In this document: piece by piece, positions 283 through 31,192 of the stretch
Numbering within the stretch: the stretch's first letter is position 1
How the letters are laid out: each line of letters opens with the position of its first letter
Origin: Myxococcus sp.
GTDB lineage: Bacteria; Myxococcota; Myxococcia; Myxococcales; Myxococcaceae
Length of the DNA stretch: 32,231 nucleotides
Reading direction: 5' to 3'
Assembly (NCBI GenBank): GCA_014879945.1
Contig: JACSRE010000195.1
Coordinates: 1-32,231, forward strand
The notes under the pieces: model-generated
What the model saw: only the letters and a program-made list of their open reading frames with translations
Databases searched by the model: none
Told to the model about the DNA's origin: nothing
Position numbers and translations under genes: made by a program

Positions 283-858
283 TCAGAAGACCTCGACCTT
301 GCAGATCGACCGCAGCAGCGAGGCCTTGTCCTGCGACGACTTGCGGCAGAACCCCGCGTCTTCGAAGGTGACGCCCGCGGCCCCGTCGGCGGAGCAGCTG
401 CAGGCGCTGCCCATGCACGCGATGGCGTAGGCCTTGCCGTCGGAGCAGCTGGCCCGCGAGTACGAGCAGCCCGCGTTGGTGGTGCTCGAGCTGTTCTCGC
501 GGCACGTCACGGTGCCGGCTCTGGGCGGGCACACCCCCGGGTCGCGGCACGAGGCCGGCGTGTCGCCCATGGAGAGGGCTTCGCACGACGTCGCGTCGAT
601 ACCCGACAGGCAGGCATTGGCCCTCGCGCTGTCGAGGTCACACGGCAGGTCGGCGAAGGCGTCGCACTTCGCCTTGCCGCCCAGGTCCTCGGCGCACGCG
701 GCCTCGTCGGCGTACAGCGACGTCGCCGCCGAGCCCTGGCACTGGAACAGGCGCTTGCACGACCGCGCCGCGCTCTGCTTGCAGAAGTCGACGAACGTCG
801 TCGGCCCGCAGGCGCTCACCACCACCGACACCGCCATCACCGCCACGCGCCCCTTCAT
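283..858 (-). CDS. Small Cys-rich lipoprotein
   Basis: This 191-residue protein has a hydrophobic N-terminus ending in the lipobox VSAC (lipidated Cys17), followed by a mature domain with about 18 cysteines and no family I recognise. The start at 858 is chosen because its ATG shares the ATGA overlap with the stop of the helicase gene (857-855), and a GGAG lies 9 bases upstream inside the helicase end. An in-frame ATG at 873 would add five charged residues before the signal and is less likely. The paired cysteines suggest disulfides outside the cytoplasm. The overlap implies translational coupling to a cytoplasmic helicase, which gives no clear functional clue. Confidence 0.8.
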   Translation of the reverse strand: MKGRVAVMAVSVVVSACGPTTFVDFCKQSAARSCKRLFQCQGSAATSLYADEAACAEDLGGKAKCDAFADLPCDLDSARANACLSGIDATSCEALSMGDTPASCRDPGVCPPRAGTVTCRENSSSTTNAGCSYSRASCSDGKAYAIACMGSACSCSADGAAGVTFEDAGFCRKSSQDKASLLRSICKVEVF

Positions 859-2765: not shown

Positions 2766-2813
2766 GCGGCGTGGGCATCATGCACGGAAATCCTCGCGGG
2801 GCTATGGGGAGAC

Positions 2814-4865
2814 ATGGCCAACCGCCTCGCCGCCGAGACCTCGCCCTACCTGCGGCAGCACGCCGACAACCCGGTGGACTGGTACCCGTGGGGCGACGAG
2901 GCGCTCGCGCTGGCGAAGCAGACGCAGAGGCCCATTCTGCTCTCGGTCGGCTACTCGGCCTGCCACTGGTGCCACGTGATGGCCCACGAGTCGTTCGAGG
3001 ACCCGCAGGTGGCGGCGCTGATGAACGCGCACTTCGTCAACATCAAGGTTGACCGCGAGGAGCGGCCCGACGTCGACCACCTCTACCAGGGCGTGGTGCA
3101 GTTGATGGGGCGTGGCGGCGGCTGGCCCCTCACCGTCTTCCTCACGCCCGACAAGCAGCCTGTCTACGGCGGCACCTACTTCCCCCCGACGCCCCAGCAC
3201 GGGCTGCCCGCTTTCTCGGCCGTCGTCGCGGGCATCGCCGAGGCGTGGGAGAAGGAGCGCGAGGAGCTGCTGCGCCAGGGCGAGGCCTTCGAGAAGGGCC
3301 TGACCCAGTACGCGGCCTCGGGCGTCGATGACGCGCAGCCCGGCGCGCTCACGCCAGCCGAGGTGGTGCAGGCCGCGCAGTTCCTCGCGAAGCGGGTCGA
3401 CCCGCGCTTTGGGGGCTTCGGCGCGCGCGGCCCGAAGTTCCCCAACCCGATGTTGCTGGCGCTGATGCTCCGGGGGGCGCGGCGCTCGGGTGACGAGGGC
3501 CTGCTCACCCCGGCGCTGCTGACGCTCGAGCGCATGGCCCTCGGTGGCGTCTTCGACCAGCTGGGCGGCGGCTTTCACCGCTACAGCGTCGACGAGCGCT
3601 GGCTGGTGCCGCACTTCGAGAAGATGCTCTACGACAACGCCCAGCTGCTGCACCTGTACGCCGAGGCGATGCAGGTGGCGCCCCGCCCGCTGTGGAAGAA
3701 GACGGTGGAAGAGACGGTCGCGTGGCTCGGGCGCGAGCTGACGTCTCCCGAGGGCGCCTTCTTCGCCGCGCAAGACGCCGACAGTGAAGGCGAAGAGGGC
3801 AGGTTCTTCGTGTGGCGTGAGGAGGAACTCGACGCCGCGCTGACGCCCGACGAGGCCGCCGCGGTGAAGGCGCACTTCGGGGTGAAGCCGGGCGGCAACT
3901 TCGAGCACGGCGCGTCGGTGCTCGAGGTCGTCGGCGGCGACGAGGTGCGCGAGGTGCTGGCCCGGGCGAAGCAGAAGCTCTTCGACGTCAGGGCGCAGCG
4001 GGTGGCGCCGGGCACCGACGACAAGGTGCTCGCCGGGTGGAACGGGCTGGCCATTCGCGGGCTCTCGCTGGCCGCGCGGGTGTTTCAGCGGCCCGAGTGG
4101 AGCGCCAGGGCCAGGCGCGCCGCCGACTTCGTGCTCGAGCGCATGCGCAAGCCCGACGGCGGGCTGTGGCGCTCCTTTCACTCCGGCGTGGCGCGCATCG
4201 ACGGGCAGCTCGAAGACTACGGCGACGTCTGCGCGGGGCTGGTCGCGCTCTACCAGGCCACCTTCGAGCCCCGGTACCTCGAGGCCGCGGAGCACCTGGC
4301 CGACCTCGCCGTCGCCACCTTCTGGAGCGCCGAGAAGCGCGCGTGGCTGGCCGCGCCCAGGCACCAACACGACCTGCTGGTGCCGACGTACTCCCTGCAC
4401 GACAACGCGACGCCGGCGGGCGCGTCGACGATGACCGAGGCGCTGGTGGCGCTGGGGGCATTGACGGGCCGGGCGCGCCACCTCGAGCAGGCGCGGGTGT
4501 ACCTCGAGCAGCTCCACCACGAGCTGACGTCGCAGCCCATGTCGCTTGGGCACCTGTGGTTGGCGGCCGACGCGCTGCTCGACGGCGCCCCCGAGGTGAC
4601 GCTGGTGGGGAGCCGTGAGGCGCTCGAGCCCTTCGTCCGCCACGTCGACGAGACCTACCTCCCCACCCTGGCCGTGCACGTGCTCGAGCAGGGCGCGCCG
4701 GTGCCGGCGGTGGCGCGCGAGGTGCTCTCGGGCCGGCCCCCCCGGGGCGAGGTGGCGGCGTACCTCTGCCGCTCGTTCGCCTGTCAGGCGCCGGTGTCGT
4801 CGCTGGAGGCGTTTCGCGCGCTCGTGCGCCCGCTCGGTGCCCCGCCTGCGCCCCGCCAGGCGTGA
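2814..4865 (+). CDS. Thioredoxin-domain protein, DUF255 (YyaL/SSP411 family)
   Basis: This 683-residue protein begins with the family signature: the [21 protein letters not shown]-type N-terminus, then [10 protein letters not shown] with the CxxC pair at Cys50 and Cys53. The N-terminal thioredoxin fold (about 1-170) is followed by a long alpha/alpha-barrel region resembling N-acylglucosamine 2-epimerase and cellobiose epimerase folds, with [12 protein letters not shown] and [12 protein letters not shown] as recognisable conserved blocks. Family members are widespread but their biochemical activity is not settled; human SSP411 (spermatogenesis-associated protein 20) is a homologue. The start is fixed by GGGGAG three bases upstream of the ATG and by the family N-terminus; the same frame is open far upstream but that stretch is antisense to the helicase. 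It ends convergently, 39 bases from the kinase stop. Confidence 0.93.
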
Positions 4866-4904
4866 AGCGCCCCCCACGCCATGCCCTGCGGCTGGCGCTG
4901 GGCG

Positions 4905-6026
4905 TCAGCGCAGGCGAAAGCCGGCGTCGCCGTCGCGCACCAGCAGCCCGCGCTCGACGAGGCTCTGCGCGACGTCGAGCACCGGCGGCGCGTCGGGCGA
5001 GAGGCGCAGGTGCGCCTCGAGCTGCTCGAGCGTCAGCGGCCCTTCGAACTGCTCGAGCTGCCGCAGGGCCTCGGTTTCGTGAGGGCTCAGCGGCGCCAGG
5101 GTCGTCACGGCCAGGCTCGGCGGGGGCTGCGCCGGCGGGGGCGCGACCGCGGTGGGCGCCGGCGCTCGATGGGCCATCCACACCGCGAGCGCCCGCCTCG
5201 CGTCGCCCGCGCGCTGCGTCGCCAGCCACTGCTCCAGCAGGGTGACGACCTCGCCGAGGTCGGAGAAGCGCTGCGCCGGGGCGCGCGCGAGCATGCGCAT
5301 CACCAGCGCGTCGAGCGGCTCCGGCACCAGGGCGTTCACCTGCTTCGGCGGCGTCACCACGCACGCCACCACCTGATCGAGCGTCGAGGTGTCGGTCTCT
5401 CCGGCGTACAGCCGCCGGCCGGTGAGCAGCTCCCAGAAGACGACCCCGAGCGAGAACTGGTCGGTCTTCGCGTCGGCGACCCCGTCGAGGGCGTGCTCGG
5501 GCGCCATGTACTCCCAGGTGCCGCCGAGGCTGCCCTCGTCGCGGCCCAGGCGGCCCAGGCCGAAGTCGATGAGCCGGGTGACGCCGTCGACGCCCACCAG
5601 CAGGTTCTTCGGCGACACGTCGCCGTGCACGATGCCGAAGGGGCGGCCCGCCGCGTCGGTCGAGGTCTGCGCCGCGTGGAGCGCCGTCGCCGCGTCGGCG
5701 ACGATGCGCACCGCCGACTCGAGGGGCACCGCGCCCAGGGCCTTGAGGTCGCTGCCCTCCACGAACTCCATGGTGAAGAAGAAGACGCCGTCGGCCTCGC
5801 CGAGCTCGAGCACGCGCGAGACGTTGGGGTGCACCAGCCGCGCGGCGACGCCGGCCTCGTTGAGGAACAGGCGGCCGAGCTCACGGTCGTGCGCGAGGTG
5901 CGGGAGCAGCCGCTTGAGCACCACCTGAGGGGACGAGGACCCGGCGACGCGCGCGAGGAAGACCTCGCCCATGCCGCCGTGGCCCAGGCGCCGCACCAGC
6001 TCGTAGCGACCCAGGCGGCCGGGCAT
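4905..6026 (-). CDS. Cytoplasmic Ser/Thr protein kinase with HGD catalytic loop
   Basis: This 373-residue protein is an eukaryote-like (Hanks-type) kinase. The Gly loop is GHGGMGEV (15-22), the ATP-anchoring lysine is Lys38 (VVLKRL), the catalytic loop is HGDVSPKN (134-141), the Mg loop is DFG (154-156) and APE is at about 175-177. The usual HRD arginine is a glycine, making it a non-RD kinase, so activation-loop phosphorylation may not be needed. There is no membrane segment. A Pro-rich linker (about 289-305) leads to a C-terminal domain of about 60 residues (313-373) with a helix-rich, winged-helix-like pattern ending GLLVRDGDAGFRLR. It lies 7 bases downstream of the transglutaminase-like gene, so the two are probably cotranscribed. 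The winged-helix reading is inference. Confidence 0.92.
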   Translation of the reverse strand: MPGRLGRYELVRRLGHGGMGEVFLARVAGSSSPQVVLKRLLPHLAHDRELGRLFLNEAGVAARLVHPNVSRVLELGEADGVFFFTMEFVEGSDLKALGAVPLESAVRIVADAATALHAAQTSTDAAGRPFGIVHGDVSPKNLLVGVDGVTRLIDFGLGRLGRDEGSLGGTWEYMAPEHALDGVADAKTDQFSLGVVFWELLTGRRLYAGETDTSTLDQVVACVVTPPKQVNALVPEPLDALVMRMLARAPAQRFSDLGEVVTLLEQWLATQRAGDARRALAVWMAHRAPAPTAVAPPPAQPPPSLAVTTLAPLSPHETEALRQLEQFEGPLTLEQLEAHLRLSPDAPPVLDVAQSLVERGLLVRDGDAGFRLR

Positions 6027-6033
6027 GGCGCGT

Positions 6034-7479
6034 TCAGCGCACCTCGTGCACGACGAGGCTGCCGATGAGCGGGGTGATCTCGGCGCTGCCCTCTTCGCCC
6101 ACCTTGAAGTGGGTGGCGTCGGCGACGTCCTGGCCGAACGTCGGGTCGAGCTGCGTCCACTCGCCGACGAAGGCCTCGACCCACTCGTGCCAGTACAGCG
6201 CCGGCACCTGGTCTTCGTTCATCAGGTACACCACGCCGTCGACGCGCCGGGCGGGAATGCCGGCGGCGCGCAGCAACGCCACCGTCAGCAGCGAGTGCTC
6301 GGTGCAGTCGCCGCGCAGCGTCTTGAGCACGTCGGTCGCGCGATCGGACGACGCGCCGTAGTCCTTCACCAGGCGCTCGTTCACCCACTTGCCGATCTTC
6401 TTCGCGGCCGCGTAGGCGTCCTTCTCGTTGCCGACGATGGCCCTGGCCTGCTTGACGATCTCGGGCGCCTTCGCCTCGACGATGATGTCGCTCTCGAGGT
6501 TCTTGCCGCCGTTGGGGTCGGCCAGCGGGCGCACCTGCCTCAGCTTCGGCGGCGCGGCGGTCAGCTTCACCACGACGCGCTTGTCGTCGAGCTTCTCGTA
6601 GCTCTGGCGGTAGGTCTGCTCCTGAAACCGCTCGGGCAGGCCGCTCATCACCATCGTCATCGAGCCCGGAATCTGGCGGACCTCGGGCGGCGGCGGCTTC
6701 GGCAGCTTGATGCGGGTGAGCCCGAACACCTCGACGAGGTCGATGCGTTTGGCTTGATCCTCCGGCTCCATCATCGCCATCATGGTCGGCCCGAAGCGCA
6801 CCTCGAGCATGCGGCCCTGCTCGTCCACGAAGGCCTCGGTCGGCACCTTCTCTTTCTCGCTGATGGTGATGGCCTTCTTGAGCTTCACCTTCACGCCGCG
6901 AATCACCCGCGACTCGACGTCGCCGACGGTGGTGCGCACGTCGTACTGCTTGAGGTCGGTGGTGTCGGTGATGACGCCAGCGACGGGGGCGTTTCGTTTG
7001 AGCGCCACGCGCGCCTGGTCGGCGTCTTCGACGACCTCTCTCGGGGCGGGCAGCAGCAGCGCCTCGTCCTTCATGCCCGGCCGGGTGCGGGTGATCTTGA
7101 GGCCCTCTTTGGTGACGAGGCCGTCGAGCGTCTGGTCGCCGCCGTCGCCCCGCTGCTCGAGGCGCAGCGCCAGCAGCTTGCCGTTGGGCCTGGCCTCGAA
7201 GACCTTGGTCTCTTTCATCACCCGCTCGCTGACGCGGGTGCCGACCTTCGCCTTGAAGTGCAGCTCGTTGAGGCTGGTGACCTGATCGCCCGCGGCGTTC
7301 CGGCTGACGAGGGTGAACATCCACCCGACCTTCTGGTTCGAGAGGTACACGCCGAAGTACTCGCCCTCTTTCGGGCGCTGCGCGGTGACGGCGTCAGACA
7401 GCGGCGCGCTCTTCTCGGCGAAGGCGAGCGTCGTGAAGGCGCAGAGCGCGAGGAGGGCGAACGAGAGCGAGCGGCGCAT
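6034..7479 (-). CDS. Exported transglutaminase-like protein
   Basis: This 481-residue protein has a signal peptide (MRRSLSFALLALCAF, likely cut after AFA near residue 21). Its C-terminal transglutaminase core has the full triad: Cys392 in LRGDCTEHS, His431 in YWHEWVEA and Asp445 in QLDPT. The N-terminal 370 residues are mostly beta-rich and unassigned. Bacterial members of this superfamily are usually periplasmic cysteine peptidases or cross-linking enzymes, and the substrate here is unknown. The ATG at 7479 is chosen because it starts the signal peptide exactly; the longer frame from 7536 adds 19 residues without homology or hydrophobicity. The downstream kinase, 7 bases away, suggests an envelope function paired with cytoplasmic signalling. 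Confidence 0.88.
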   Translation of the reverse strand: MRRSLSFALLALCAFTTLAFAEKSAPLSDAVTAQRPKEGEYFGVYLSNQKVGWMFTLVSRNAAGDQVTSLNELHFKAKVGTRVSERVMKETKVFEARPNGKLLALRLEQRGDGGDQTLDGLVTKEGLKITRTRPGMKDEALLLPAPREVVEDADQARVALKRNAPVAGVITDTTDLKQYDVRTTVGDVESRVIRGVKVKLKKAITISEKEKVPTEAFVDEQGRMLEVRFGPTMMAMMEPEDQAKRIDLVEVFGLTRIKLPKPPPPEVRQIPGSMTMVMSGLPERFQEQTYRQSYEKLDDKRVVVKLTAAPPKLRQVRPLADPNGGKNLESDIIVEAKAPEIVKQARAIVGNEKDAYAAAKKIGKWVNERLVKDYGASSDRATDVLKTLRGDCTEHSLLTVALLRAAGIPARRVDGVVYLMNEDQVPALYWHEWVEAFVGEWTQLDPTFGQDVADATHFKVGEEGSAEITPLIGSLVVHEVR

Positions 7480-7567
7480 GAGGCCGCGCACGCTACCACG
7501 AGGTGAACAGGCGCCCGGGCTGACGACGACGGCCATGGCTGGCCAGACGGTGAGCCTCAGGTCGAAT

Positions 7568-8035
7568 TCACAGCCGCTTGGCGAGCACCACGAGGTCTTC
7601 GCCGGGCTTGTAGAAGTCGCGGAAGCGCGACTCCTCCTTGTACTGCATGGCGGCGTAGAAGCCGCGCGTGGGGCCGTACGCCTCCATCGCGCTGGTCTCG
7701 ACGCGAATCAGGCGGCCCTTGCGGCGGCGAATGTCGCCCTCCATCGCGCTCACCAGCGCGGCGCCCACGCCCTGCCCGCGCACCAGCGGGTCAGACGCGA
7801 TCCAGTAGAGGTCGAAGGTGCCGTCGGTCATCGGCGTCGGGCCGTAGCAGACGTAGCCGACGATCTTGCCTTCGCGGGCGGCGACCAGCACCTGGTAGTC
7901 CTTGTTGCCGGGCTGGCTAGCGCCGTCGATCAGCTCGAGCGCGCAGTCCACCTCGTCCGCCGTGAACGTCTCGATGCGGCGCAGCAGGCCTTCGAGCTGC
8001 GTCCGGTCCTGTGAGACGACGGGTCTGATTTCCAT
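7568..8035 (-). CDS. GNAT-family N-acetyltransferase
   Basis: This 155-residue protein has the GNAT fold: MEIRPV at strand 1, GKIVGYVCYG at strands 2-3, DLYWIASDPLVRGQGVGAAL carrying the acetyl-CoA loop (RGQGVG), and a C-terminal RGFYAAMQYKEE segment typical of motif B. The start is set at the ATG 8035, which has AGGA eight bases upstream; the in-frame 8053 ATG has no such site. The 5' 119 bases overlap the end of the ATP-grasp gene in another frame. Substrates of stand-alone GNAT proteins cannot be read from sequence. The pairing with an amino-acid ligase-like enzyme suggests an amine, amino acid or dipeptide substrate, which is inference. Confidence 0.88.
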   Translation of the reverse strand: MEIRPVVSQDRTQLEGLLRRIETFTADEVDCALELIDGASQPGNKDYQVLVAAREGKIVGYVCYGPTPMTDGTFDLYWIASDPLVRGQGVGAALVSAMEGDIRRRKGRLIRVETSAMEAYGPTRGFYAAMQYKEESRFRDFYKPGEDLVVLAKRL

Positions 8036-14497: not shown

Positions 14498-17146
14498 CTA
14501 CGGGGTCATCATGAACTGCTCGGTGCCCACCGCGCCGGCCTCGGGCTCACGGTCTTCGGGCTCGGTGCCGCGCTTGAACCAGAGGTCGATGGTGCCCTTG
14601 CCGTTGGCGAGCTTGCCGGTGCGCTTGTCGACGCGGCGGCGAACGAGGTCGAGGCGTGGGGGCGGGTCGAACTCGGGCTGGTTGCGGCCCTGCAGCGCGC
14701 GCGTCATGTAGGCCAGCCAGATGGGGAGCGCCGCGCGGCCACCGGTCTCGTAGCGGCCCAGCGGGTGCTTGTTCAGGTCGTAGCCCACCCACGCGGTCGT
14801 CACGAGGTCGCGGGTGAAGGCGGTGAACCAGGCGTCGAAGGAGTCGTTGGTGGTGCCCGTCTTGCCGGCGGCCGGCTTGCCCAGGCGCGAGGCGGCGGCG
14901 CCGGTGCCCTCGCGCACCACGCCGCGCATCAGGTCGGTCACGAGGAAGGCCGTCTCGGGTGAGAAGACCTGCTCGCCCGGCTCCTCGAGGCGCGCGTAGC
15001 CCGCGGCCACCCGGTCTTGCAGCGAGGCCCACGGGTCGTCCCACGCGGTGTGGTCCTCCACCGTGCGGCCGAAGCGGTCTTCGATCTTGCGAATGAAGTA
15101 CGTCGGCTTCTTCGCGCCGAGCCGGTTGATGGTGGCGTACACGTTCACCAGCTCGAGGGGGAACATGCAGGTCGAGCCGAGCGCGGTGGAGTAGTTGTGG
15201 TTCACCGGCGAGTCGACCACGCCGTCGCCGTCGGTGTCGGCGTGGTTCGAGATGCCGAGGGTGCGGATGAAGTCGGCGAAGGCCTCGATGCCGACCTTCT
15301 CGTTCTTGTTGCCCAGCTTGCGGGCGATCTCGATGAAGGTCTTGATGGCCGGCAGGTTCATCGAGTTCACCAGCGCGGTGCGAATGAGCACCTCACCCTT
15401 GAAGTCCTCGTCGTAGTTGGCCGGCTTCCACCGGTTCTGGTTCTCGGGGTCGTCGTAGACGATGGGGCTGTCCACCAGCACGGTGCCCTGCGTCCACTGG
15501 AGCTTCTCGAAGGCGGTGGCGTAGACGATGGGCTTGAACGACGAGCCGGGCTGGCGGCAGGCCTGGAAGGCGCGGTTGAACTCGTTGGCGTCGAAGTCGT
15601 AGCCGCCCACCATCGCCACCAGGTACTGGCGCTGCGGGTCGATGCTGGCGAGGGCCGACTGCAGCTCGGGCTCCTGCTCCAGGCGCACCAGCGGCAGGTC
15701 GGTGGGCACCTCTTTGGCCATGGCGTCGTTGCGCGTCTCGCCGTCGTCGGTGAGGCCCTTCACGTCGGCCACCGCGCGCACCACGATGAGGTCGTTCTCT
15801 TTCAGCGCGTCCTTGACCGAGTTGATGAGCACGCTGGGGTAGTACTTCTCGGCGTTGAGCGGGCGGGCCCAGCGCATTCCCAGGGCGGGGAGCAGCGCCT
15901 TCTGCTTGCCGATGCGCACCTCGGCCGACGCGCCGTTGCTGGCGATGCTCGAGACCAGCGCCACGTACGAGCGGCCCGGCGTGATGACCTCGTCACCCAT
16001 GGCCTTGTCGGCCTTCGCGAGGAACGCGGCGCGCTCCTTCTCGGTGGCGAGGTTGCCGAGGGCGCCGCGGTAGCCCTGGCGCTTGTCCACAGCGAGCAGC
16101 CCCCACAGCACCGAGTCCTGGGCGGCGCGCTGCTTCTCCGACTCCATGGTGGTGAAGACCTTGAGCCCGTCGTTGAGCAGGGCCGGGTTGCCGTAGCGGT
16201 TCACCACGTCGCGGCGCACCTCTTCGGTGAAGTAGGGCGCGAACTCGTGGAAGACGTCTTCGACGTTGAACACGCTCACCTCGGTCTTCGAGGCCTCGTC
16301 GTGCTCGACCTTCGTGATCATGCCCTTCTGCAGCATCTGCCCCAGCACGTACTGCCGGCGCTTGCGGGCCTTCTCGGGCTGGGTGAAGGGCGAGAACGCC
16401 GACGGCGCCTGCGGCAGGCCCGCCAGCAGCGCCATCTCGGCGAGCGTGAGGTCCTTGACGTCCTTGCGGTAGTAGTTCTCGGCCGCCGACTGCACCCCGT
16501 AGCTGTGGTGCCCGAGGTAGACGTTGTTCAGGTAGAGGTAGAGGATCTGCTCCTTGGTCAGCTCGCGCTCGAGCCGGCGGGCGAGCAGGGCCTCGCGGAT
16601 CTTCCGCTTGATGGTCTTGGCGGTCGACTCCTTGTAGCCCTCGGTCGAGATGAGCACCGCCTTGGCGGTCTGCTGGGTGAGCGTGGAGCCGCCCTGCACC
16701 TTGCCGGCGCCGGTCAGCTTCTTGGTCACCGTCTTGAACACCGCGCGGCTGGTGCCGAAGACGTCGATGCCGAAGTGGTCGAAGAAGTCGGCGTCTTCGG
16801 CGGCGATGAAGGCCTGCACCAGGCGCTTGGGAATGCGCTCGTACGGCACCACCTTGCGGCGCTCGTTGTAGAACTCGCCCGCGAGCACCGCGTCTTGCGT
16901 GTACACCTCGGAGAGGATGGGCGGGCGGTACTCCTCGGGCCTGGGGAAGTCAGGCAGCCCGTCGGAGTACTTCCACACCACGAAGCCGTAGCCCATCACG
17001 GCCGCGGTGAGGCCCGTGAGGGTCACCCAGCCCAGGAACTTGAACGGAAGCTTCCACCAGCGCGCCTTCGGGACGTCGACCAGCACCAGCTTTCCTTTCA
17101 CGCTCGCCGGGGAGTCGGGGGCCTCGTCGCTCGTCTTCTTCTGCAT
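14498..17146 (-). CDS. mrcA: Class A penicillin-binding protein 1A
   Basis: This 882-residue bifunctional peptidoglycan synthase has a short cytoplasmic tail, one membrane anchor (about 36-58), a GT51 glycosyltransferase with Glu117 in EDADFFDHFG and GGSTLTQQ (152-159), and a transpeptidase with the SxxK serine at 535 (PGSSFKP), then STALGST and KTGT at 762-765. The catalytic residues are all in place. A DxDxDG loop (DTDGDGVVD, residues 637-645) sits just before the NHNYSTALGST block. The start has GGGGAGG four bases upstream and overlaps the pseudouridine synthase stop by one base (TGATG), so the two genes are probably translated as a pair. A non-classical C-terminus of about 80 residues follows the transpeptidase core. 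Confidence 0.95.
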   Translation of the reverse strand: MQKKTSDEAPDSPASVKGKLVLVDVPKARWWKLPFKFLGWVTLTGLTAAVMGYGFVVWKYSDGLPDFPRPEEYRPPILSEVYTQDAVLAGEFYNERRKVVPYERIPKRLVQAFIAAEDADFFDHFGIDVFGTSRAVFKTVTKKLTGAGKVQGGSTLTQQTAKAVLISTEGYKESTAKTIKRKIREALLARRLERELTKEQILYLYLNNVYLGHHSYGVQSAAENYYRKDVKDLTLAEMALLAGLPQAPSAFSPFTQPEKARKRRQYVLGQMLQKGMITKVEHDEASKTEVSVFNVEDVFHEFAPYFTEEVRRDVVNRYGNPALLNDGLKVFTTMESEKQRAAQDSVLWGLLAVDKRQGYRGALGNLATEKERAAFLAKADKAMGDEVITPGRSYVALVSSIASNGASAEVRIGKQKALLPALGMRWARPLNAEKYYPSVLINSVKDALKENDLIVVRAVADVKGLTDDGETRNDAMAKEVPTDLPLVRLEQEPELQSALASIDPQRQYLVAMVGGYDFDANEFNRAFQACRQPGSSFKPIVYATAFEKLQWTQGTVLVDSPIVYDDPENQNRWKPANYDEDFKGEVLIRTALVNSMNLPAIKTFIEIARKLGNKNEKVGIEAFADFIRTLGISNHADTDGDGVVDSPVNHNYSTALGSTCMFPLELVNVYATINRLGAKKPTYFIRKIEDRFGRTVEDHTAWDDPWASLQDRVAAGYARLEEPGEQVFSPETAFLVTDLMRGVVREGTGAAASRLGKPAAGKTGTTNDSFDAWFTAFTRDLVTTAWVGYDLNKHPLGRYETGGRAALPIWLAYMTRALQGRNQPEFDPPPRLDLVRRRVDKRTGKLANGKGTIDLWFKRGTEPEDREPEAGAVGTEQFMMTP

Positions 17147-18219
17147 CAGGCCTCCCCGGTCTCGTCGGCGTCGTCGTCTGCGTCGTGCTTCGGTGTCTTC
17201 TTCCCACCACGCGGGGGCTTGCCCGCGTGTCCTTCAGCCCGCGCCCCGGCCACCTGCACCGAGGGAGGAATCACCACGCCCGCGCGGTTGAGCACCTCGG
17301 CGAGGCCCGCGGGGAGCGGCGCTGCAATCACCATGCGCTCTTTGGTGTCGGGGTGCGGGAACTCGAGCCGGGTGGAGTGGAGGAACAAGCGGTCGAGGCC
17401 CCACCTCGCCTTGACGTCGCGGTTGAACGGGAAGTCGCCATGCTTCGGGTCGCCCGCCACCGGGTGCCCGATGGCCGCGAAATGTCGCCGAATCTGGTGC
17501 GTGCGGCCAGTCTCAATCGTGCAGCTGACGAAGGCCACCTGGGCCGTCTGCGCGAGCACGGTGTAGCGGGTGCGGGCCTCTTGCATGTTGACGCCGCGGC
17601 GGGCGCGCGACTCGGCGGTCTGCTGGTGCTCCGACAGCGGCAGGTCGATGAGCCCCGAGGTCTGCGGCAGCTTGCCCTTCACCAGCACCAGGTACTGCTT
17701 CTTCGCGAGGTGCCGGGTGAAGACGTCGGTGAAGTGCACCATCGCGGGCCGGCGCTTGGCCACCACCAGCACGCCGCTGGTCTCGCGGTCGATGCGGTGG
17801 GCGGGGCTGGCGCTGAAGCCGTTTCGCGTCGCCTTCGCGCCCAGGTACGCGCGCACCAGGTCGACGACGGTGCCGCCGGTGATGCCGCTGCCGGTGTGCA
17901 CCGCCATGCCCGAGGGCTTGTCGATGACCACCACCCAGTCGTCCTCGTGCAGCACGGTGAGGTCGTCGAGGTCGACCTTCGGCGGCGGCGGGGCGGTGCG
18001 CTCGCGCTCCGTGCGCAGGGTGGACTCGTCGCCCCGAATCGAGATGACGTCGTCCTTGGCGAGGTGCTGCTCGGGCTTGGCGCGCTTGCCGTTGACGCGC
18101 ACCTTCTTCACCCGAATCATCTTGAACAGGTGCGACGTCGGCACGTTCGGCAGAGTCCGCTTGAGGAACTTGTCGAGCCGCAGGCCGTTGTCGTCCTCGC
18201 TGATGCGGAACTCGAGCAT
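17146..18219 (-). CDS. Pseudouridine synthase, RluC/RluD type
   Basis: This 357-residue enzyme has an N-terminal S4 RNA-binding domain (about 12-70, LRLDKFLKRTLPNV to KDDVISI) and a catalytic RluA-family domain with Asp144 in HRIDRETSGVLVVAK; later TGRTHQIRRHFAAIGHP is the conserved RNA-contacting motif. It isomerises uridines in RNA, by homology in 23S rRNA; the exact site cannot be assigned. After the core there is an extra tail of about 50 residues, Lys/Gly-rich then Asp-rich (GGKKTPKHDADDDADE), probably disordered. It is first in an apparent two-gene unit with PBP1A. The upstream 103-base gap divides it from the divergent pentapeptide-repeat gene. Confidence 0.93.
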   Translation of the reverse strand: MLEFRISEDDNGLRLDKFLKRTLPNVPTSHLFKMIRVKKVRVNGKRAKPEQHLAKDDVISIRGDESTLRTERERTAPPPPKVDLDDLTVLHEDDWVVVIDKPSGMAVHTGSGITGGTVVDLVRAYLGAKATRNGFSASPAHRIDRETSGVLVVAKRRPAMVHFTDVFTRHLAKKQYLVLVKGKLPQTSGLIDLPLSEHQQTAESRARRGVNMQEARTRYTVLAQTAQVAFVSCTIETGRTHQIRRHFAAIGHPVAGDPKHGDFPFNRDVKARWGLDRLFLHSTRLEFPHPDTKERMVIAAPLPAGLAEVLNRAGVVIPPSVQVAGARAEGHAGKPPRGGKKTPKHDADDDADETGEA

Positions 18220-18294: not shown

Positions 18295-18322
18295 CGCGCG
18301 ACCATGTAGAAGCGGCCCCGTC

Positions 18323-19546
18323 ATGCCCAAGCAGCCGACCATCGAAGACCTCCTGAAGAATGGCAGCAAGCAGTGGAACCAGCTCCGGCGGGACGGCAAG
18401 GTCGCGCTCGACCACACCGGCGCCACGTTCCCCCAGCTCTTCTCGGCCAACGCCGACCTCTCGGGCCTGACGCTCATCGGCTCGGAGTGGGAGAAGTGCG
18501 ATCTGTCGAAGGTGACCTTCAAAGAGGCCGACCTCTCGAACAGCTACTTCCACGGCGGCCGCCTGCAGGACTGCGACTTCCGCGGGGCCAACCTCGAGGG
18601 CGCGACCTTCGAGAAGCTCAAGCTGCTGCGCTGTGACTTCACCGGCGCCAAGGGCCTCGAGGAGCTCGAGTTCGACGACTGCGACATGGACCGCGTGGTG
18701 GGCCTCAACGGCGAGATGGCGCCGCCGCCGCCGCCCCCGCCCGCCGTCGGCATCACCAGTTTCACCCGTGAGCAGCGCGCCGCCGCGATGGCCGCCCAGT
18801 CGCAGGGGCCGGAAGACAGCGACCTGCCGCCGTTCCGCCCCACCGACCCGCCCGGCACGCTCCTGTTCCGCGGGCTCAAGCACGTCGCCAACCCGCCGCC
18901 CTGGGTGCTCGACGTGCCCGGCCTGCGCCCGCCGCTGCCGGTGCGCATGGCCCCCGGCGTCAGCCTCGAGCACCTGTACCGCGAGGCCGTGAAGACGCGC
19001 CTCGAGGGCCGCCGCCCGGTGCCCGACATGCAGGCCCTCGAGAAGGCGAAAGAGGCCATCGCCGCGGGCGCCGCCGACACCGCCATCGCCGTCATGTACA
19101 TGCGGGAAGTGGGCGTCGAGCCCACGCCGTCTGACGCTGCCCTCGCCACCCTCGCCAACGACCTGAGCGCCGCGATGGAGGTGGAAGACGCCACCGGTGA
19201 CGTCGACCCCCGCATCACCGGCGCCATGCTCGAGCTGCGGGCCACCGCCGAGGGCATGGAGCACATCGGCGAGCTGCGCGTGCGCCTGGCGGCCGTGCAG
19301 CTCTTCACCTCGCTGCTCGAGGCCGGCTTCGCGCCCGACAACAACTGGGAAGAGGCGGTCGACTCCCAGGAGCCCTCGCAGGACCTCGCGCACGTCGCCT
19401 CGAACGGCAACCGCGCCGTCCTCAAAGAGGCCTTCGAGGCCTTCGCCGGGCTGCCCGACGAGGTGCGCATGCGCCGCCTCGCCTACCTCGCCGAAGCCAC
19501 CGCGCACGTCGAGGCGATGGCTGGTGGCGAGCCGCAGCCCGCGTGA
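18323..19546 (+). CDS. Pentapeptide-repeat protein with C-terminal helical domain
   Basis: This 407-residue protein has pentapeptide repeats in residues about 42-130 (ANADLSGLTL, EADLSNSYF, GANLEGATF), which form a right-handed beta helix of about 18 repeats. A run of seven prolines (about 134-140) joins it to a 260-residue domain I do not recognise, mostly alpha-helical with Ala/Glu-rich segments. Only the repeat part belongs to a known fold. Pentapeptide proteins can mimic DNA (the Qnr type) or act as scaffolds; the repeat region here is short and not obviously Qnr-like. The start is the first ATG after the divergent gap, with no strong ribosome binding site. The beta-barrel gene follows after 28 bases. 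Confidence 0.85.
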   Translation: MPKQPTIEDLLKNGSKQWNQLRRDGKVALDHTGATFPQLFSANADLSGLTLIGSEWEKCDLSKVTFKEADLSNSYFHGGRLQDCDFRGANLEGATFEKLKLLRCDFTGAKGLEELEFDDCDMDRVVGLNGEMAPPPPPPPAVGITSFTREQRAAAMAAQSQGPEDSDLPPFRPTDPPGTLLFRGLKHVANPPPWVLDVPGLRPPLPVRMAPGVSLEHLYREAVKTRLEGRRPVPDMQALEKAKEAIAAGAADTAIAVMYMREVGVEPTPSDAALATLANDLSAAMEVEDATGDVDPRITGAMLELRATAEGMEHIGELRVRLAAVQLFTSLLEAGFAPDNNWEEAVDSQEPSQDLAHVASNGNRAVLKEAFEAFAGLPDEVRMRRLAYLAEATAHVEAMAGGEPQPA

Positions 19547-19574: not shown

Positions 19575-20285
19575 ATGAGAGCCCTGGCGTTCGCCGTCAT
19601 GCTGGCAGGTGGAGTGGTGTCTGCGCAGGCCGTCTCGAGTGAGCCCGGCGGCGGCGTCATCGAGGCGCCGGCCGAGACGACGAAGGTGCTCGGGCCCATG
19701 CGCGCCGACGCCCGCTTCACCGTCGACACCGACATTCTGCTCGCCTACGTGAACCTGGGCGTCAACGCCGACCTCGGCATCGTGAAGCTGGGCCCGGGCG
19801 TGCTGGCGGTGGGCGCGGGCCTCGACGTCGGCTTCTGCGGCACGGTGTGTCTGCTCATCGGCGGGCTGCTCAACGGCTCCTACGGCGCGCGCAACTTCTT
19901 CCCCCAGGCCCGCCTGAGCTACCACCTCGAGCTGCCGGCGAAGTCGGGCAACGCCCTGCAGAAGGTCGACGTCTACGGCGTGGTGTTCGCGGGCCTGGTG
20001 GTGTCGTCGATGGGCTTCGCCGGGCAGTACCAGGGCGTGATGGTGAGCGCGACCAGCACCGGCGTGGGGCCCGGCGTCGGCCTGGGCGCGGGCGGCTCCT
20101 ACTTCTTCACCGAGCGCGTCTTCGTCGGGGCCGAGGCGTCGCTGAAGTACGCGGCGGGCCGCTACAACGACGTCGTCACGGTGACGCCGCCCAACTCGAA
20201 CGTCGACTTCCGCTGGCGTGACGAGTACTCGGGTTGGAGCATCTCGGGCCTGAGCGTGCGGCTCTTCCTGGGCTTCAGGATCTAG
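19575..20285 (+). CDS. Outer-membrane beta-barrel-like protein
   Basis: This 236-residue protein has a signal peptide (MRALAFAVMLAGGVVSAQA) and a mature part with alternating hydrophobic and polar residues, Gly and aromatic residues, and the C-terminal pattern ISGLSVRLFLGFRI typical of an outer-membrane barrel's last strand. There is a small Cys pair (FCGTVC). The family and ligand are unknown. The start is supported by GGAGG five bases upstream. The stop codon (20283-20285) is shared in a CTAG with the minus-strand PanD-like gene, so the two genes overlap tail to tail. It probably follows the pentapeptide-repeat gene in the same transcript. Confidence 0.8.
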   Translation: MRALAFAVMLAGGVVSAQAVSSEPGGGVIEAPAETTKVLGPMRADARFTVDTDILLAYVNLGVNADLGIVKLGPGVLAVGAGLDVGFCGTVCLLIGGLLNGSYGARNFFPQARLSYHLELPAKSGNALQKVDVYGVVFAGLVVSSMGFAGQYQGVMVSATSTGVGPGVGLGAGGSYFFTERVFVGAEASLKYAAGRYNDVVTVTPPNSNVDFRWRDEYSGWSISGLSVRLFLGFRI

Positions 20286-20746
20286 CCAGCCGCGGGACTG
20301 CGCCCGGCCTTCTGCTTCTTCTTCGCGCGCTTCGGGCTTGGCGGTTTCACCGCTGCTGCGGCGTCGGCCGGTGCCGCGGCGCCGACCGCCCGGTTCTGCG
20401 CGTCGGTCACCACGCGCTGCGGCTGGTGCTTCTTCGCCTGCTTCTCCTTCATCCACCCGAAGGACGAGAGCGTCACCAGGTCGCCCGGCCGCACCAGCTG
20501 GGCGACGGCGCCTGACACCGCCACCTCGCCCGAGGCCCGGGGCGCGGCCGTCACCGGCGCGGCGAGGCGCGCCCCGTTGGTGACGTCGAGCAGGTCGACC
20601 TTCTCGTGCTCGAGGAAGCCGGCGGCGTCGAGCAGGTCGGCGTCGAGAACCAGGCCGTCGGCCCCGTCGAGCGCCGCGCGGGTGACGACGAGCGACGGCA
20701 CCGTTCCCAGCAGCACCTGACGCAGCGACTTCGAGGTCTCGGCCAT
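20282..20746 (-). CDS. PanD-fold protein lacking the processing serine, with Lys-rich tail
   Basis: This 154-residue protein aligns along its length with aspartate 1-decarboxylase PanD: ALDGADGLVLDADLLDAAGFLE, VTNGARL and VRPGDLVTLSSF match PanD blocks. In PanD, Gly24-Ser25 is cleaved to make the pyruvoyl cofactor; here the aligned pair is Asp30-Gly31. Other PanD active-site positions are also changed: Lys9 is Thr15, Thr57 is Ala63 and Tyr58 is Pro64; Arg54 is kept (Arg60). These comparisons use the E. coli sequence from memory. It is therefore probably not a decarboxylase. Residues 123-154 are an Ala/Pro/Lys tail (SPKRAKKKQK) resembling histone H1 tails. The ATG at 20746 has AAGGAG nine bases upstream; an upstream ATG at 20785 lacks one. 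It is last in a minus-strand gene run. Confidence 0.8.
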   Translation of the reverse strand: MAETSKSLRQVLLGTVPSLVVTRAALDGADGLVLDADLLDAAGFLEHEKVDLLDVTNGARLAAPVTAAPRASGEVAVSGAVAQLVRPGDLVTLSSFGWMKEKQAKKHQPQRVVTDAQNRAVGAAAPADAAAAVKPPSPKRAKKKQKAGRSPAAG

Positions 20747-20814
20747 GACGGGCGGCTCCTTCGGGGAATCGAACGAGAGGGCCATAGGCCAGAAGGGCGC
20801 CAGCAGGTAGCCGT

Positions 20815-21822
20815 TCAGCGTCGGCGCGAGCGGCGAGGGCGTGGCGCGGCGGCCTGCCCGAAGAGGTCGAGCTGCAGCGTCTCGGTGACGGCGCGGGCGA
20901 ACAGGCCCTCTCTACGCAGCCCAGCCGCCAGCTCGTCGGCGAACCCGAACAAGGTGATGACCTCGCGCGCGCCCGAGGCCCGCGCGAAGGCCACCAGCGA
21001 GGGGTAGTCGGCGTGGTCCGAGACGGGGAAGGCCACGTCGGCGCCGGCGCGCCTGGCGCCCCACGCCTCGAGCGCCCAGCCCGTCAGCACCGCGGTGGCC
21101 ACCGGCCCCACGTCGCGCGGCCGGTGCTTCTTGAAGGGCGGGAAGAGGCCGACCTCTCCCGCTTCGAAGGTGCCCTCGAAGCGCCGCGCGTCGATGGGCA
21201 CGCCGAGGTCGGCGTAGAGCGCCGAGATGGCGTGAATCGACTCGTGCGCCGCCACCTTGAGGCCGCGCGCGGCGAGCTGCTGAATCGACTCCTGGCTCTT
21301 TCCCAGCGAGTAGGCCAGCAGCACCGGCCGCACCCCTTGAAGGAGGTGTCGCCGGCACCACGCCGCCACCTCGTCGTAGACCTGCTCCCGCGGCGGGAAG
21401 CGGTACTTCGGGTGGCCGAAGGTCGACTCCATGATGAGCGTGTCGCAGTCGGGCACCTCGGCGCGCGTGGCGGTGAGGAACGCGCCGGGGCTGAAGTCAC
21501 CGGTGTAGACGATGCGGTGGCCGTCGGGCCGCGTCACCCGCACCTGCGCCGCGCCCAGCACGTGGCCCGCGGGGAAGAGCTCGAGGGTGAGGTCTCCGAG
21601 GGCCCAGGGCTGCCGGTAGGCGAGCGGCACGGTGACGTCGATGGCGCCGACGCGGTGCTGCATCAGCGTCAGCGTCTCGCGGGTGCCGATGGCGCGCGCG
21701 TGGCGGGCGATGTGGTCGGTGTGCGCGTGCGAGACGAAGCTCACCTCGGCCTGGCGGCGCGCGTCGAACCACAACGCCGCGCCCTGCAGCTTGAGGCCGC
21801 CTTTGAGCCAGTCGACAGGCAT
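20815..21822 (-). CDS. Metallo-beta-lactamase exonuclease-like protein (ligase-associated type)
   Basis: This 335-residue protein has the metallo-beta-lactamase motif SHAHTDH (His32, His34, Asp36, His37), then FPAGHVLGAAQV, YTGDFSPG, and the beta-CASP-type later blocks LLAYSLGKSQESIQQL and FPVSDHADYPSL. This is the pattern of DNA-processing exonucleases encoded beside ATP-dependent DNA ligase and an Lhr-like helicase in many bacteria; neither is in this window. The C-terminal 20 residues are Arg-rich (RPRRSRRR), possibly DNA-binding. It sits 36 bases after the HPr-kinase-like gene and 68 before the PanD-like gene, in the same direction. RNA processing instead of DNA processing cannot be excluded. 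Confidence 0.88.
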   Translation of the reverse strand: MPVDWLKGGLKLQGAALWFDARRQAEVSFVSHAHTDHIARHARAIGTRETLTLMQHRVGAIDVTVPLAYRQPWALGDLTLELFPAGHVLGAAQVRVTRPDGHRIVYTGDFSPGAFLTATRAEVPDCDTLIMESTFGHPKYRFPPREQVYDEVAAWCRRHLLQGVRPVLLAYSLGKSQESIQQLAARGLKVAAHESIHAISALYADLGVPIDARRFEGTFEAGEVGLFPPFKKHRPRDVGPVATAVLTGWALEAWGARRAGADVAFPVSDHADYPSLVAFARASGAREVITLFGFADELAAGLRREGLFARAVTETLQLDLFGQAAAPRPRRSRRR

Positions 21823-27338: not shown

Positions 27339-27380
27339 GGGCGGCCCCTGCGCTGGTGCGTCATGGCCCCAGAGCGCGAT

Positions 27381-27403
27381 GGCCCGACGGGCCCAGCTGG
27401 GCC
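27381..27403. promoter_or_regulatory. Overlapping palindromes just before xdhA
   Basis: Two overlapping dyads lie 15 bases before the xdhA ATG (27418): GGCCC-GAC-GGGCC (27381-27393) and the perfect 14-base palindrome GGCCCAGCTGGGCC (27390-27403). They share the central GGCC bases, so only one can fold at a time. They could be an operator for xdhAB, an RNA structure affecting its translation, or a terminator for the preceding gene without a T-tract. If xdhA starts at 27379 instead, they lie inside the coding sequence. Confidence 0.35.
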
Positions 27404-27417
27404 AATCTCTGCCCCCG

Positions 27418-28884
27418 ATGAACACCTTGCGCTTCAACTTGAACGGCCAGTGGATCGAAGAGTCGGGACTCGCGCCCACCACCACGCTCCTGCGCTACCT
27501 GCGCGACGTGCGCGGGCTCACCGGCACCAAAGAGGGCTGCGCCGAGGGTGACTGCGGCGCGTGCTCCGTGGCGGTCGTCGAGAACGGCCCCGACGGCGCG
27601 CCTGCGTACCGCGCCGTCAACGCCTGCCTGCTGCTGCTGCCGATGGTGCAGGGCAAGCACGTCGTCACCGTCGAGGCGCTCAAGCAGGGCGAGGCGTACC
27701 ACCCGGCGCAGCAGGCCATGGCCGCCGCCCTCGGCAGCCAGTGCGGCTACTGCACCCCCGGCATCGTGATGTCGTTGTTCGAGGCGACGTATCGGAAGGA
27801 CCTGAAGCAGCCCTGGCAGCTCGACGACCAGCTCTGCGGAAACCTCTGCCGCTGCACCGGCTACCGGCCGATTCGTGACGCCGCCACCGCCGTCGCCGGC
27901 ACCTGCCCGAAGGACGCCTTCGTCGCCGCGCTGCCTGCCTCCAGGCCCACCTCGATGGCGTTTCACCGCGAAGACGAGGGCCAGCTCTTCGTCACGCCCA
28001 CCACCTTCGACGAGCTGTGGGCCGTGCTCGACGAGCACCCCGACGCGCGCTTCGTGGTGGGCGGCACTGACCTGTCGCTCGAGATCACCAAGCGCTTCCA
28101 GGTGCCTCCCAGGCTGATCTCGCTCGAGGGCCTGTCCGAGCTGCACACCCTGCGCGAGGGCGCGACGCACCTGCTCGGCAGCGGCGCCACCCTGTCGGAG
28201 CTCGAAGACTTCTCGGCCGCCCGGCTCCCGCCCGTGCACCGCATGCTGCGGTACTTCGCGGCGCGGCAGATCAAGCACCGCGGCACCGTGGGCGGGAACC
28301 TGTGCACGGCCTCGCCCATCGGCGATCTGCCGCCGGTGCTGATCAGCCTGGGCGCCACCGCGGTGCTGCGCTCCCGACGAGGCGAGCGGCGGCTGGCGCT
28401 CGAAGACTTCTTCACCGGCTACCGCAAGACGGCGCTCGAGCCCAAAGAGGTGCTGATCGGCGTCGAGGTGCCGGCGCTCCCGCCGACGACGCGCGCGGCC
28501 GCCTACAAGGTGAGCAAGCGCCGAGAGCTCGACATCAGCGCGGTGTCGGCCGGAATGCTCGTCGAGGTGAGCGCCGCCAACGTGGTGACGCGCGCCCGGC
28601 TCGCGTTCGGAGGCATGGCCGCGACCACGAAGCGGGCCGCGCACGCCGAGGCCGCGCTGCTGGGCCAGGCGTGGACCGAGGCGGCCGTCGAGCTGGCCGC
28701 GAAGGCCATGGCGAACGACTTCACGCCGATGTCCGACCACCGCGGGAGCGCGCCCTACCGGTCGCTCGTCGCCGCCAACCTGTTGCGCGGCTTCTTCGAC
28801 GAGACGTCAGTGACGCCACAGCCGCGGCTCGCGCCAGGTCACGCGGCCACCGTGCTGACCCACGAAGAGGTGCGCCATGACTGA
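27418..28884 (+). CDS. xdhA: Xanthine dehydrogenase small subunit (FeS and FAD)
   Basis: This 488-residue protein is the iron-sulfur/FAD subunit of xanthine dehydrogenase, which oxidises hypoxanthine and xanthine to urate. The first [2Fe-2S] cluster is bound by Cys41, 46, 49 and 70 (EGCAEGDCGACS), the second by Cys109 and Cys112 (QCGYC) and Cys144 and Cys146 (LCRC). The FAD-binding domain follows from about residue 180, with VVGGTDLSLEI and RGTVGGNLCTASPIGDLPP. The start at 27418 (MNTLRFNLNG) matches family N-termini; an in-frame ATG at 27379 would add 13 residues and no ribosome binding site decides it. Its stop overlaps the xdhB start by eight bases. Confidence 0.95.
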   Translation: MNTLRFNLNGQWIEESGLAPTTTLLRYLRDVRGLTGTKEGCAEGDCGACSVAVVENGPDGAPAYRAVNACLLLLPMVQGKHVVTVEALKQGEAYHPAQQAMAAALGSQCGYCTPGIVMSLFEATYRKDLKQPWQLDDQLCGNLCRCTGYRPIRDAATAVAGTCPKDAFVAALPASRPTSMAFHREDEGQLFVTPTTFDELWAVLDEHPDARFVVGGTDLSLEITKRFQVPPRLISLEGLSELHTLREGATHLLGSGATLSELEDFSAARLPPVHRMLRYFAARQIKHRGTVGGNLCTASPIGDLPPVLISLGATAVLRSRRGERRLALEDFFTGYRKTALEPKEVLIGVEVPALPPTTRAAAYKVSKRRELDISAVSAGMLVEVSAANVVTRARLAFGGMAATTKRAAHAEAALLGQAWTEAAVELAAKAMANDFTPMSDHRGSAPYRSLVAANLLRGFFDETSVTPQPRLAPGHAATVLTHEEVRHD

Positions 28885-31192
28885 GCCCACCTCGCCGCTG
28901 CGCCAGGCGCTGCTCCACGAGTCGGGCCTCAAGCACGCCACCGGCGAGGCCCGCTACGTGGACGACTGGCCTGCGCCTCCCGGAATGCTGGTCGCGCAGG
29001 TCGTCACCTCGAGGGTCGCGCACGCGAAGCTCCAGCGCGTCGACGCCAGCGCCGCGCTCGCCGTGAAGGGCGTGGTGGCGGTGCTCACCGCGAAGGACGT
29101 GCCCGGCACCAACGACGTCGGCCCCGTCATTCACGACGAAGAGCTCTTCGCGCACGACACGGTGCGGTTCCTCGGCCAGTCCATCGCGGTCGTCATCGGC
29201 GAGTCGTACGAGGCCTGCCGCGCCGGCGTGGCCGCGGTGAAGGTCGAGCTCGAAGCGCTGCCGGCGGTGCTGTCCATCGACCAGGCCATCGAGCACCAGA
29301 GCTACTTGTCGAGGGACCACCGGCTGACCCGCGGCGACTCGAAGGCCGCGCTCGCCAACGCGCCGGTGCGCTTCCAGGGCGAGGTCGTCACCGGCGGGCA
29401 AGACCACTTCTACCTCGAGACGCAGTGCACCCTCGCCATCCCCGAAGAGGGCCCGGCGTTGCGCCTCATCTCGTCGACCCAGCACCCCAGCGAGGTGCAA
29501 ACCATCGTCGCCCACGTGCTGGGCTGGGGCCGGCATCAGCTCGTCGTCGAGGTGCCGCGCATGGGCGGCGGCTTCGGCGGCAAAGAGACGCAGGCTGCGC
29601 CGTACGCGGCGATGGCGGCGCTGGGGGCGCTCAAGACGGGCCGGCCGGTGAAGGTGTGGCTCAACCGCGACCAGGACATGATGTGGACGGGCAAGCGCCA
29701 CCCGTTCAAGACGCGCTTCGACGTCGGCTTCTCGACCGACGGCCAGCTGCTGGCGCTCGAGGCCGAGCTCTTCGCCGACGCCGGGTTCAGCACCGACCTG
29801 TCGCGCGCCATCCTCGACCGCGCGCTCTTCCACATCGACAACGGCTACTTCATCCCCGACGTCACGGTGACGGGCCACCTCGCGAAGACGAACCTGCCGT
29901 CGAACACCGCGTTCCGTGGGTTCGGCGGGCCGCAGGGCATGGCCGTCATCGAAGACATCATGTCGCGCGCGGCCGAGCGGCTGGGCCTCGAGGCCTCGGC
30001 GCTGCGGAGGAAGAACTTCTACGGCGCGGCCCCGCGCAACGTGACGCCCTTCTGGCAAGAGGTGAAGGACTGCCGGCTCGAGCGGCTCTTCAGCGAGCTG
30101 CTCTCGACGAGCGAGTACACGCGGCGCCTGGGCGAGGTGGCCGGGTTCAACCAGGCCCACCGGCACGCCAAGCGCGGGCTGGCCATCACCCCGGTGAAGT
30201 TCGGCATCAGCTTCACCACCTCGTTCCTCAACCAGGCGGGCGCGTTCGTCGTCGTCTACGCCGACGGCTCGGTGCAGCTGAACCACGGCGGCACCGAGAT
30301 GGGGCAGGGCCTGCACACCAAGATGCTGGCGGTCTGCGCCCACGAGCTGGGCGTTCGGCCAGAGCGTGTGCGGGTGATGACGACGGCCACCGACAAGGTG
30401 CCCAACACCTCGGCCACCGCGGCCTCGAGCGGCTCGGACCTCAACGGCTTCGCGGTCAAGCACGCTGCCGAGACGGTGCGCGAGCGCCTGAGGCCGGTCG
30501 CCGCGAAGCTCCTCGGGGTGGCGGGTGACGCCGCGAAGGCCCTGGTGTTCGAGAACGGCCGGGTCTTCCTGCCGTCGACGCCGGCGCAGGCGGTGCCGTT
30601 CGAGAAGGTGACGCACGAGGCCTACCTCGCGCAGGTCTCCCTGTCGGCCACCGGCTACTACCGCACGCCCGACATCCACTTCGACAGGGCCACCGGCCGC
30701 GGCAAGCCGTTTCACTACTTCGCCTACGGCGCGGCGGTGTCAGAGGTCGAGGTGAGCGGGCTGACGGGCGAGCACCGGCTGCGCCGCGTCGACCTGCTGG
30801 CTGACGTCGGGGCGTCGCTGGTGCCGTCCATCGACAAGGGGCAGGTCGAGGGCGCCTTCATTCAGGGCTGGGGCTGGCTCACCTGCGAGGAGCTCCGCGT
30901 CGACGACAAGGGCTTCCTGCGCACGCACTCGCCCGACACCTACAAGGTGCCGGCCTTCGGCGACGCCCCCGTGGACTTCAGGGTGGCGCTGCTCGAGAAC
31001 GCGCCGCAAGACGGCACCATTCACGGCAGCAAGGCCGTCGGCGAGCCGCCGCTGATGCTGGCCTTGTCGGCGGTGGCGGCGCTGCGCCACGCGGTGTCGG
31101 CGTTCGGCAAGCCGGGCCGGGAGGTGGTGCTCCCCATGCCCTGCACGCCCGAGACGGTGCTCTTCGCCGTCGAGGCGGCGCGGCGCCCGTGA
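28877..31192 (+). CDS. xdhB: Xanthine dehydrogenase large subunit (molybdopterin)
   Basis: This 771-residue protein is the molybdenum-cofactor subunit and partner of XdhA. It has the N-terminal Ald_Xan_dh_C fold (TGEARYVDDWPAPPGML), the cofactor-binding motifs GGGFGGKE, AFRGFGGPQG and MGQGLHTK, and the catalytic glutamate in GEPPLMLAL near residue 724. It works in the cytoplasm as part of an XdhAB heterodimer or its dimer. Maturation normally needs XdhC, which is not in this window. The ATG overlaps the xdhA stop by eight bases, so the subunits are translationally coupled. It ends one base before the convergent Cys-repeat gene. Confidence 0.95.
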   Translation: MTEPTSPLRQALLHESGLKHATGEARYVDDWPAPPGMLVAQVVTSRVAHAKLQRVDASAALAVKGVVAVLTAKDVPGTNDVGPVIHDEELFAHDTVRFLGQSIAVVIGESYEACRAGVAAVKVELEALPAVLSIDQAIEHQSYLSRDHRLTRGDSKAALANAPVRFQGEVVTGGQDHFYLETQCTLAIPEEGPALRLISSTQHPSEVQTIVAHVLGWGRHQLVVEVPRMGGGFGGKETQAAPYAAMAALGALKTGRPVKVWLNRDQDMMWTGKRHPFKTRFDVGFSTDGQLLALEAELFADAGFSTDLSRAILDRALFHIDNGYFIPDVTVTGHLAKTNLPSNTAFRGFGGPQGMAVIEDIMSRAAERLGLEASALRRKNFYGAAPRNVTPFWQEVKDCRLERLFSELLSTSEYTRRLGEVAGFNQAHRHAKRGLAITPVKFGISFTTSFLNQAGAFVVVYADGSVQLNHGGTEMGQGLHTKMLAVCAHELGVRPERVRVMTTATDKVPNTSATAASSGSDLNGFAVKHAAETVRERLRPVAAKLLGVAGDAAKALVFENGRVFLPSTPAQAVPFEKVTHEAYLAQVSLSATGYYRTPDIHFDRATGRGKPFHYFAYGAAVSEVEVSGLTGEHRLRRVDLLADVGASLVPSIDKGQVEGAFIQGWGWLTCEELRVDDKGFLRTHSPDTYKVPAFGDAPVDFRVALLENAPQDGTIHGSKAVGEPPLMLALSAVAALRHAVSAFGKPGREVVLPMPCTPETVLFAVEAARRP

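Follow-up and report, generated by a model that had tools for sequence, protein, structure and literature searches.

Introduction

PanD aspartate decarboxylases (PF02261, TIGR00223; M. tuberculosis 2c45, E. coli 1ppy, T. thermophilus 1vc3) are the closest described relatives of the protein analyzed here, which has the same fold and core length and shares their Arg54, their Gly73 and a C-terminal Asn. It differs from them in lacking the Gly-Ser pair together with Lys9, Tyr22, Thr57, Tyr58 and Asn72, and in adding an N-terminus, a basic WMKEK segment and a tail. The E. coli PanD S25A variant and unprocessed zymogens (1pqe, 1pqf, 4cs0) have an uncleaved barrel like that of our model; however, these forms are mostly laboratory point mutants, whereas the loss described here is natural and affects the whole active site. 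A retained dead homologue of a pyruvoyl-dependent decarboxylase is likewise found in Trypanosoma, where the AdoMetDC prozyme activates an active paralogue (PMC5201418), while the genome under study has none. Finally, Rhizobium etli has no panD and obtains beta-alanine for pantothenate via the reductive uracil pathway, which replaces PanD function while panB and panC are kept (PMC7142369). The replacement is the same as the one proposed below, but R. etli is without any PanD gene, whereas our genome retains a dead one.

PanD is usually viewed as either present and active or else absent. Here we describe a sole PanD that is dead but maintained. The fold and the replacement pathway are known; what stands out is a natural, sole-copy, maintained PanD pseudoenzyme, and our search of the open-access literature for aspartate decarboxylase or panD as a pseudoenzyme or moonlighting protein found none. 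The gene lies in a stretch of 32,231 nucleotides from a Myxococcus sp. (contig JACSRE010000195.1), referred to here as the window.

Results and Discussion

A PanD-family protein without the self-cleavage pair

The gene and the parts of its product that bear on its identity are as follows.

20282..20746, minus strand: PanD-like pseudoenzyme gene, 154 aa (ORF; PF02261, 81 bits)
20756..20761, minus strand: ribosome-binding site AAGGAG, 9 nt before the PanD-like ATG (sequence)
20384..20725, minus strand: double-psi-barrel PanD core, residues 8-121 (phmmer/Pfam range, AlphaFold, Foldseek)
20654..20659, minus strand: dead self-cleavage site, Asp30-Gly31 replacing Gly24-Ser25 (alignments)

The ORF runs on the minus strand from an ATG at 20746 to a stop at 20284-20282, and the MAE... 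start of the protein is kept in relatives. PF02261 matched residues 9-120 (E 6.5e-23; Pfam gathering score 25), and a phmmer search of the PDB returned PanDs of known structure (M. tuberculosis 2c45, E 2.5e-21) and no convincing sequence match besides them; such scores cannot be put down to chance. The AlphaFold model reached a pLDDT of 96-98 across most of the core (mean 89.2), and its best Foldseek matches were uncleaved PanD zymogens and mutants (E to PanD 7e-15; rmsd 0.8-1.9 Å). An earlier sequence-only reading of this DNA, whose coordinates for the gene are correct, had proposed a double-psi-barrel PanD fold, and both the Pfam score and the model, which lies about 1 Å from uncleaved PanD, bear this out. 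By homology, fold and orthologous position, the protein is a member of the PanD family; on the TIGR00223 panD equivalog model it scored 79.7 bits, below the cut-off of 106.

The alignments also agreed with every substitution named in that reading, namely Asp30-Gly31, Thr15 (for Lys9), Ala63 (for Thr57) and Pro64 (for Tyr58), and added the loss of Tyr22 (Gly28) and Asn72 (Ser78). PanD Arg54 is retained as Arg60. No Ser, Thr or Cys beside the turn of the protein could stand in for Ser25. Together, these residues strongly argue that the protein would be unable to form the pyruvoyl cofactor and would therefore make no beta-alanine.

The dead gene is the only PanD of its genomes and shares a locus with intact relatives

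A separate PanD elsewhere in the genome was considered as a candidate and rejected, since the window gene is the sole PF02261 match in its genome (98.7% complete), with neither a second match nor an intact panD elsewhere. This also excludes, for this genome, a role as a regulator of an active PanD paralogue, because no paralogue is there. We then extended the comparison to 96 genomes of the family, and most of the genomes compared are fragmented MAGs. Ser-less PanDs were present in eleven genomes of four genera, comprising G000, G002, G004 and G006 from the window's genus, G021, G065, G066, G067 and G068 from genus g16, and G023 and G007; each was the only PanD match of its genome. Their identity to the window's copy falls to about 42%, and the frames are open in all 11 genomes. 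A sequencing or frame error as the cause of Asp-Gly is ruled out by the eleven Ser-less genomes and the conserved frame. One further genome, G064, is apparently without the gene altogether. Conservation among orthologues, a point raised in the sequence-only reading, largely held for the dead pair and failed for the tail: Asp-Gly is kept in eight of the eleven Ser-less versions (the other three carry Asp-Ala (G023), Phe-Gly (G007) and a one-residue deletion (G006)), and the tail is variable and near-absent in two. As a separate observation, 21 genomes of the family (G087-G091, G019, G015, G014, G024, G027, G010 and others) have no PanD homologue.

Four close relatives (G001, G003, G005, G018) carry an intact Gly-Ser PanD at the same syntenic locus, and these enzymes have the MAxxxKxLR start, the GWMK[ED]K segment and the Lys-rich tail of the dead group. 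On TIGR00223, the three intact relatives tested scored 152-165 bits and the six dead versions tested 48-91 (cut-off 106). Elsewhere in the family, the usual type of PanD occupies another genomic location and forms a clade separate from this group, and an order-wide profile search for further members found none, with a score gap from 178 to 115 bits. The locus is defined by the following neighbors.

20815..21822, minus strand: metallo-beta-lactamase-fold protein, syntenic upstream neighbor (PF12706 just under cut-off)
18320-19546, plus strand: pentapeptide-repeat protein, syntenic anchor on the other side
17146-18219, minus strand: RluC-type pseudouridine synthase, syntenic anchor on the other side
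14498..17146, minus strand: class A penicillin-binding protein, syntenic anchor

Dead and intact genes of the group share this one place, the metallo-beta-lactamase-fold gene adjoining panD in nearly all intact and dead relatives, G004 excepted, and the three other anchors being seen where a relative's contig extends that far. In G004 (L038, around 1-7900), the genes upstream of the dead panD, including the metallo-beta-lactamase-fold gene, are swapped for unrelated ones, and panD is retained.

Could the Ser-less protein still be an enzyme, either through backbone cleavage at Asp-Gly or with another cofactor, and act as a decarboxylase or in a different reaction? The frequent retention of Asp-Gly would fit, as would that of Arg54, the binder of the substrate carboxylate in PanD, in all versions. 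Nevertheless, we regard this as very improbable. Asp-Gly is a common beta-turn pair, and that preference would account for its retention. Genomes with the dead site have an alternative beta-alanine route, described below, and five further active-site residues are gone in the window protein, among them Thr57, without which the E. coli enzyme is not activated (PMC3975893).

The dead PanD is under purifying selection

The dead copies of G002 and G004 differ by 9 amino-acid changes against a neutral expectation of 18.5, and those of G000 and G002 by 29 against 51; in each case, 0 of 2000 simulations gave a number as low. Nei-Gojobori dN/dS was 0.16-0.31 among dead G000, G002 and G004 (0.16 for G002/G004) and 0.08-0.12 for intact pairs, and it was 0.46-0.66 when G000, G002 and G006 were compared with intact G005. 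The dead PanD is constrained by purifying selection, yet it evolves clearly faster than the intact enzyme. With the catalytic residues lost here and in ten other genomes and purifying selection acting after the loss, the description of the protein as a pseudoenzyme is upheld.

The faster evolution might instead reflect slow decay of a remnant left functionless once the uracil route (see below) had taken over, its ORF intact since little time has passed or since misfolding is costly; the variability of the dead site, the loss of the tail in G021 and G068 and the absence of the gene from G064 could be read in the same way. On the other hand, such a remnant would not be expected to stay open as a reading frame across four genera and 11 genomes at identities that low, to have accumulated about half the nonsynonymous changes of the neutral expectation between dead copies, or to hold five residues (K6, R9, W98, K102 and A104) invariant in all 11 dead versions. 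We consider decay unlikely. Of the invariant residues, K6 and R9 are N-terminal, and the other three fall in the best-conserved stretch of the protein, which is rich in Trp, Lys and His.

20420..20458, minus strand: basic/aromatic segment GWMKEKQAKKHQP, residues 97-109 (best-conserved stretch among dead versions)

Residues 96-109 form the most conserved 14-residue window among the dead versions, with a pairwise identity of 0.66 against a mean of 0.50 (P 0.013 versus random columns, for a window picked after looking). The charge of the segment is +1 to +4 in this group (+3 in the window protein), in contrast to -1 to -2 for the three PanDs of the conventional type used for comparison. A phylum search with the exact DNA motif for the segment start matched this locus only. 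The conservation of this basic/aromatic segment suggests a binding role that would predate the loss of catalysis.

The basic tail is a trait of the group

20285..20389, minus strand: Lys/Ala/Pro-rich tail, residues 120-154 (low-confidence in the AlphaFold model)

The tail has a net charge of +7 and 23% K+R, and since residues 97-109 are basic as well, the protein could be imagined as a histone H1-like nucleic-acid binder, as the sequence-only reading had it. The comparison with relatives did not support this. Tail length in the group ranges from 1-2 residues in dead G021 and G068 to 61 in G018, and similar tails sit on intact enzymes, among them the G018 tail, whose net charge is -1. The tail is a trait of the group and not of the dead state, and it identifies no function; we hold H1-like binding through it to be improbable.

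A clustered uracil pathway probably substitutes for PanD

The window's genome retains panB and panC, as do the dead genomes tested, so that beta-alanine should still be required. Contig C65 of the window's genome, away from the PanD-like gene, carries a cluster of genes for a PreT-like protein, PreA, dihydropyrimidinase and N-carbamoyl amidase. PreA (639 bits, cut-off 335) and dihydropyrimidinase (576 bits, cut-off 393) scored well above threshold. The PreT-like protein and the nitrilase-family carbamoyl amidase reached the threshold of none of the NCBIfam models listed, and we infer their roles from resemblance and place in the cluster. A full-scoring dihydropyrimidinase occurs in 9/11 dead, 14/21 PanD-less and 2/64 Gly-Ser genomes of the family, the last having been classed by full PF02261 score or grouping and in part read residue by residue (dead versus Gly-Ser, Fisher P 2e-8, uncorrected for kinship). 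PreA is present in ten of the eleven dead genomes, whereas all four intact same-locus relatives lack it (Fisher P 0.004, uncorrected for kinship); G004, the only dead genome without it, is a 5-Mb bin with a completeness of 85%. In the flanking-gene tree, dead and intact species are interleaved, so that the contrast recurs inside the genus as well as in the comparison with G018.

We conclude that the uracil cluster could probably supply beta-alanine in the window's genome, thereby making PanD catalysis dispensable, and that the beta-alanine so derived would feed PanC. The prediction is that the uracil-to-pantothenate route of rhizobia also operates in myxobacteria. A PLP-type decarboxylase (PF00282) was rejected as a replacement: matches in dead genomes are weak (~50-78 bits) and occur in intact relatives too. 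Three other genomes (G011, G025 and G026) are without PanD and dihydropyrimidinase but have strong PF00282 decarboxylase matches. Two more, G034 and G029, combine a Gly-Ser-type PanD with strong dihydropyrimidinase and PreA, as expected of an intermediate state.

A model for the retention of the dead barrel

Taken together, we think it likely that the gene is a true PanD orthologue which lost catalysis, with the uracil route substituting and the barrel kept as a non-catalytic scaffold. According to this working model, the locus would first have held an intact Gly-Ser PanD, as it still does in close relatives. Once the reductive uracil pathway fed PanC with beta-alanine, PanD catalysis would have become dispensable, and Gly-Ser and other active-site residues could be lost, so that no pyruvoyl cofactor would form. 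The barrel, which is probably tetrameric as before, would be retained as a putative binding scaffold, in a second role predating the loss of catalysis, given that the segment is common to intact relatives and not to conventional PanDs. Judged by sequence conservation, the dead PanD probably has such a second, non-catalytic role. A more specific version, in which a pre-existing binding role of the face 97-109 accompanied repeated independent enzyme-to-scaffold conversions at one locus as the uracil route took over, is put forward tentatively, the odds being rather against it.

A dead PanD beside the live version of sister species, together with a defined replacement pathway, amounts to a natural experiment on the origin of a pseudoenzyme. 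In addition, automatic labeling of PF02261 matches as aspartate decarboxylase can mislead pathway reconstructions.

One or several losses of catalysis

A tree of flanking and panBC-linked genes placed intact G005 beside dead G000/G002/G004 (99.5/99) and dead G006 outside, which implies several losses. In the PanD tree, by contrast, all dead versions join together, and the species topology was rejected (AU P 0.009). When catalysis-linked columns were removed, the species topology was still rejected (P 0.019), while a placement of G005 with its sisters was not (P 0.25). The PanD tree is unreliable because of its long branches. From one to about five losses of catalysis are possible.

At the low end, a single old dead allele or paralogue could have persisted, with intact copies swapped in or reciprocally lost. 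The union of the dead versions in the PanD tree and both rejections of the species topology speak for such a history, but the same grouping can arise artificially from long branches and shared relaxation, and the G005 test on the reduced columns, the flanking-gene positions of G005 and G006 and the differing dead sites (the G006 deletion, Phe-Gly in G007) point the other way. We give it roughly one chance in three; it concerns history and not function and is compatible with the likely explanation given above, a PanD orthologue converted to a scaffold. Synonymous divergence, tried as a clock for when dead and intact alleles diverged, was saturated and did not discriminate.

Two features of the surrounding genes were noted in passing. 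The gap between panB and panC is ~0.1-0.2 kb in most relatives, but in G000, G002 and G004 it widens to 1.5-3.9 kb and contains other genes (panB/panC regions L062 6074-9220, L063 4970-10475 and L064 5871-11071). In the window itself, two adjoining genes on the plus strand (27379-31192) resemble, by eye, the iron-sulphur and molybdopterin subunits of xanthine dehydrogenase.
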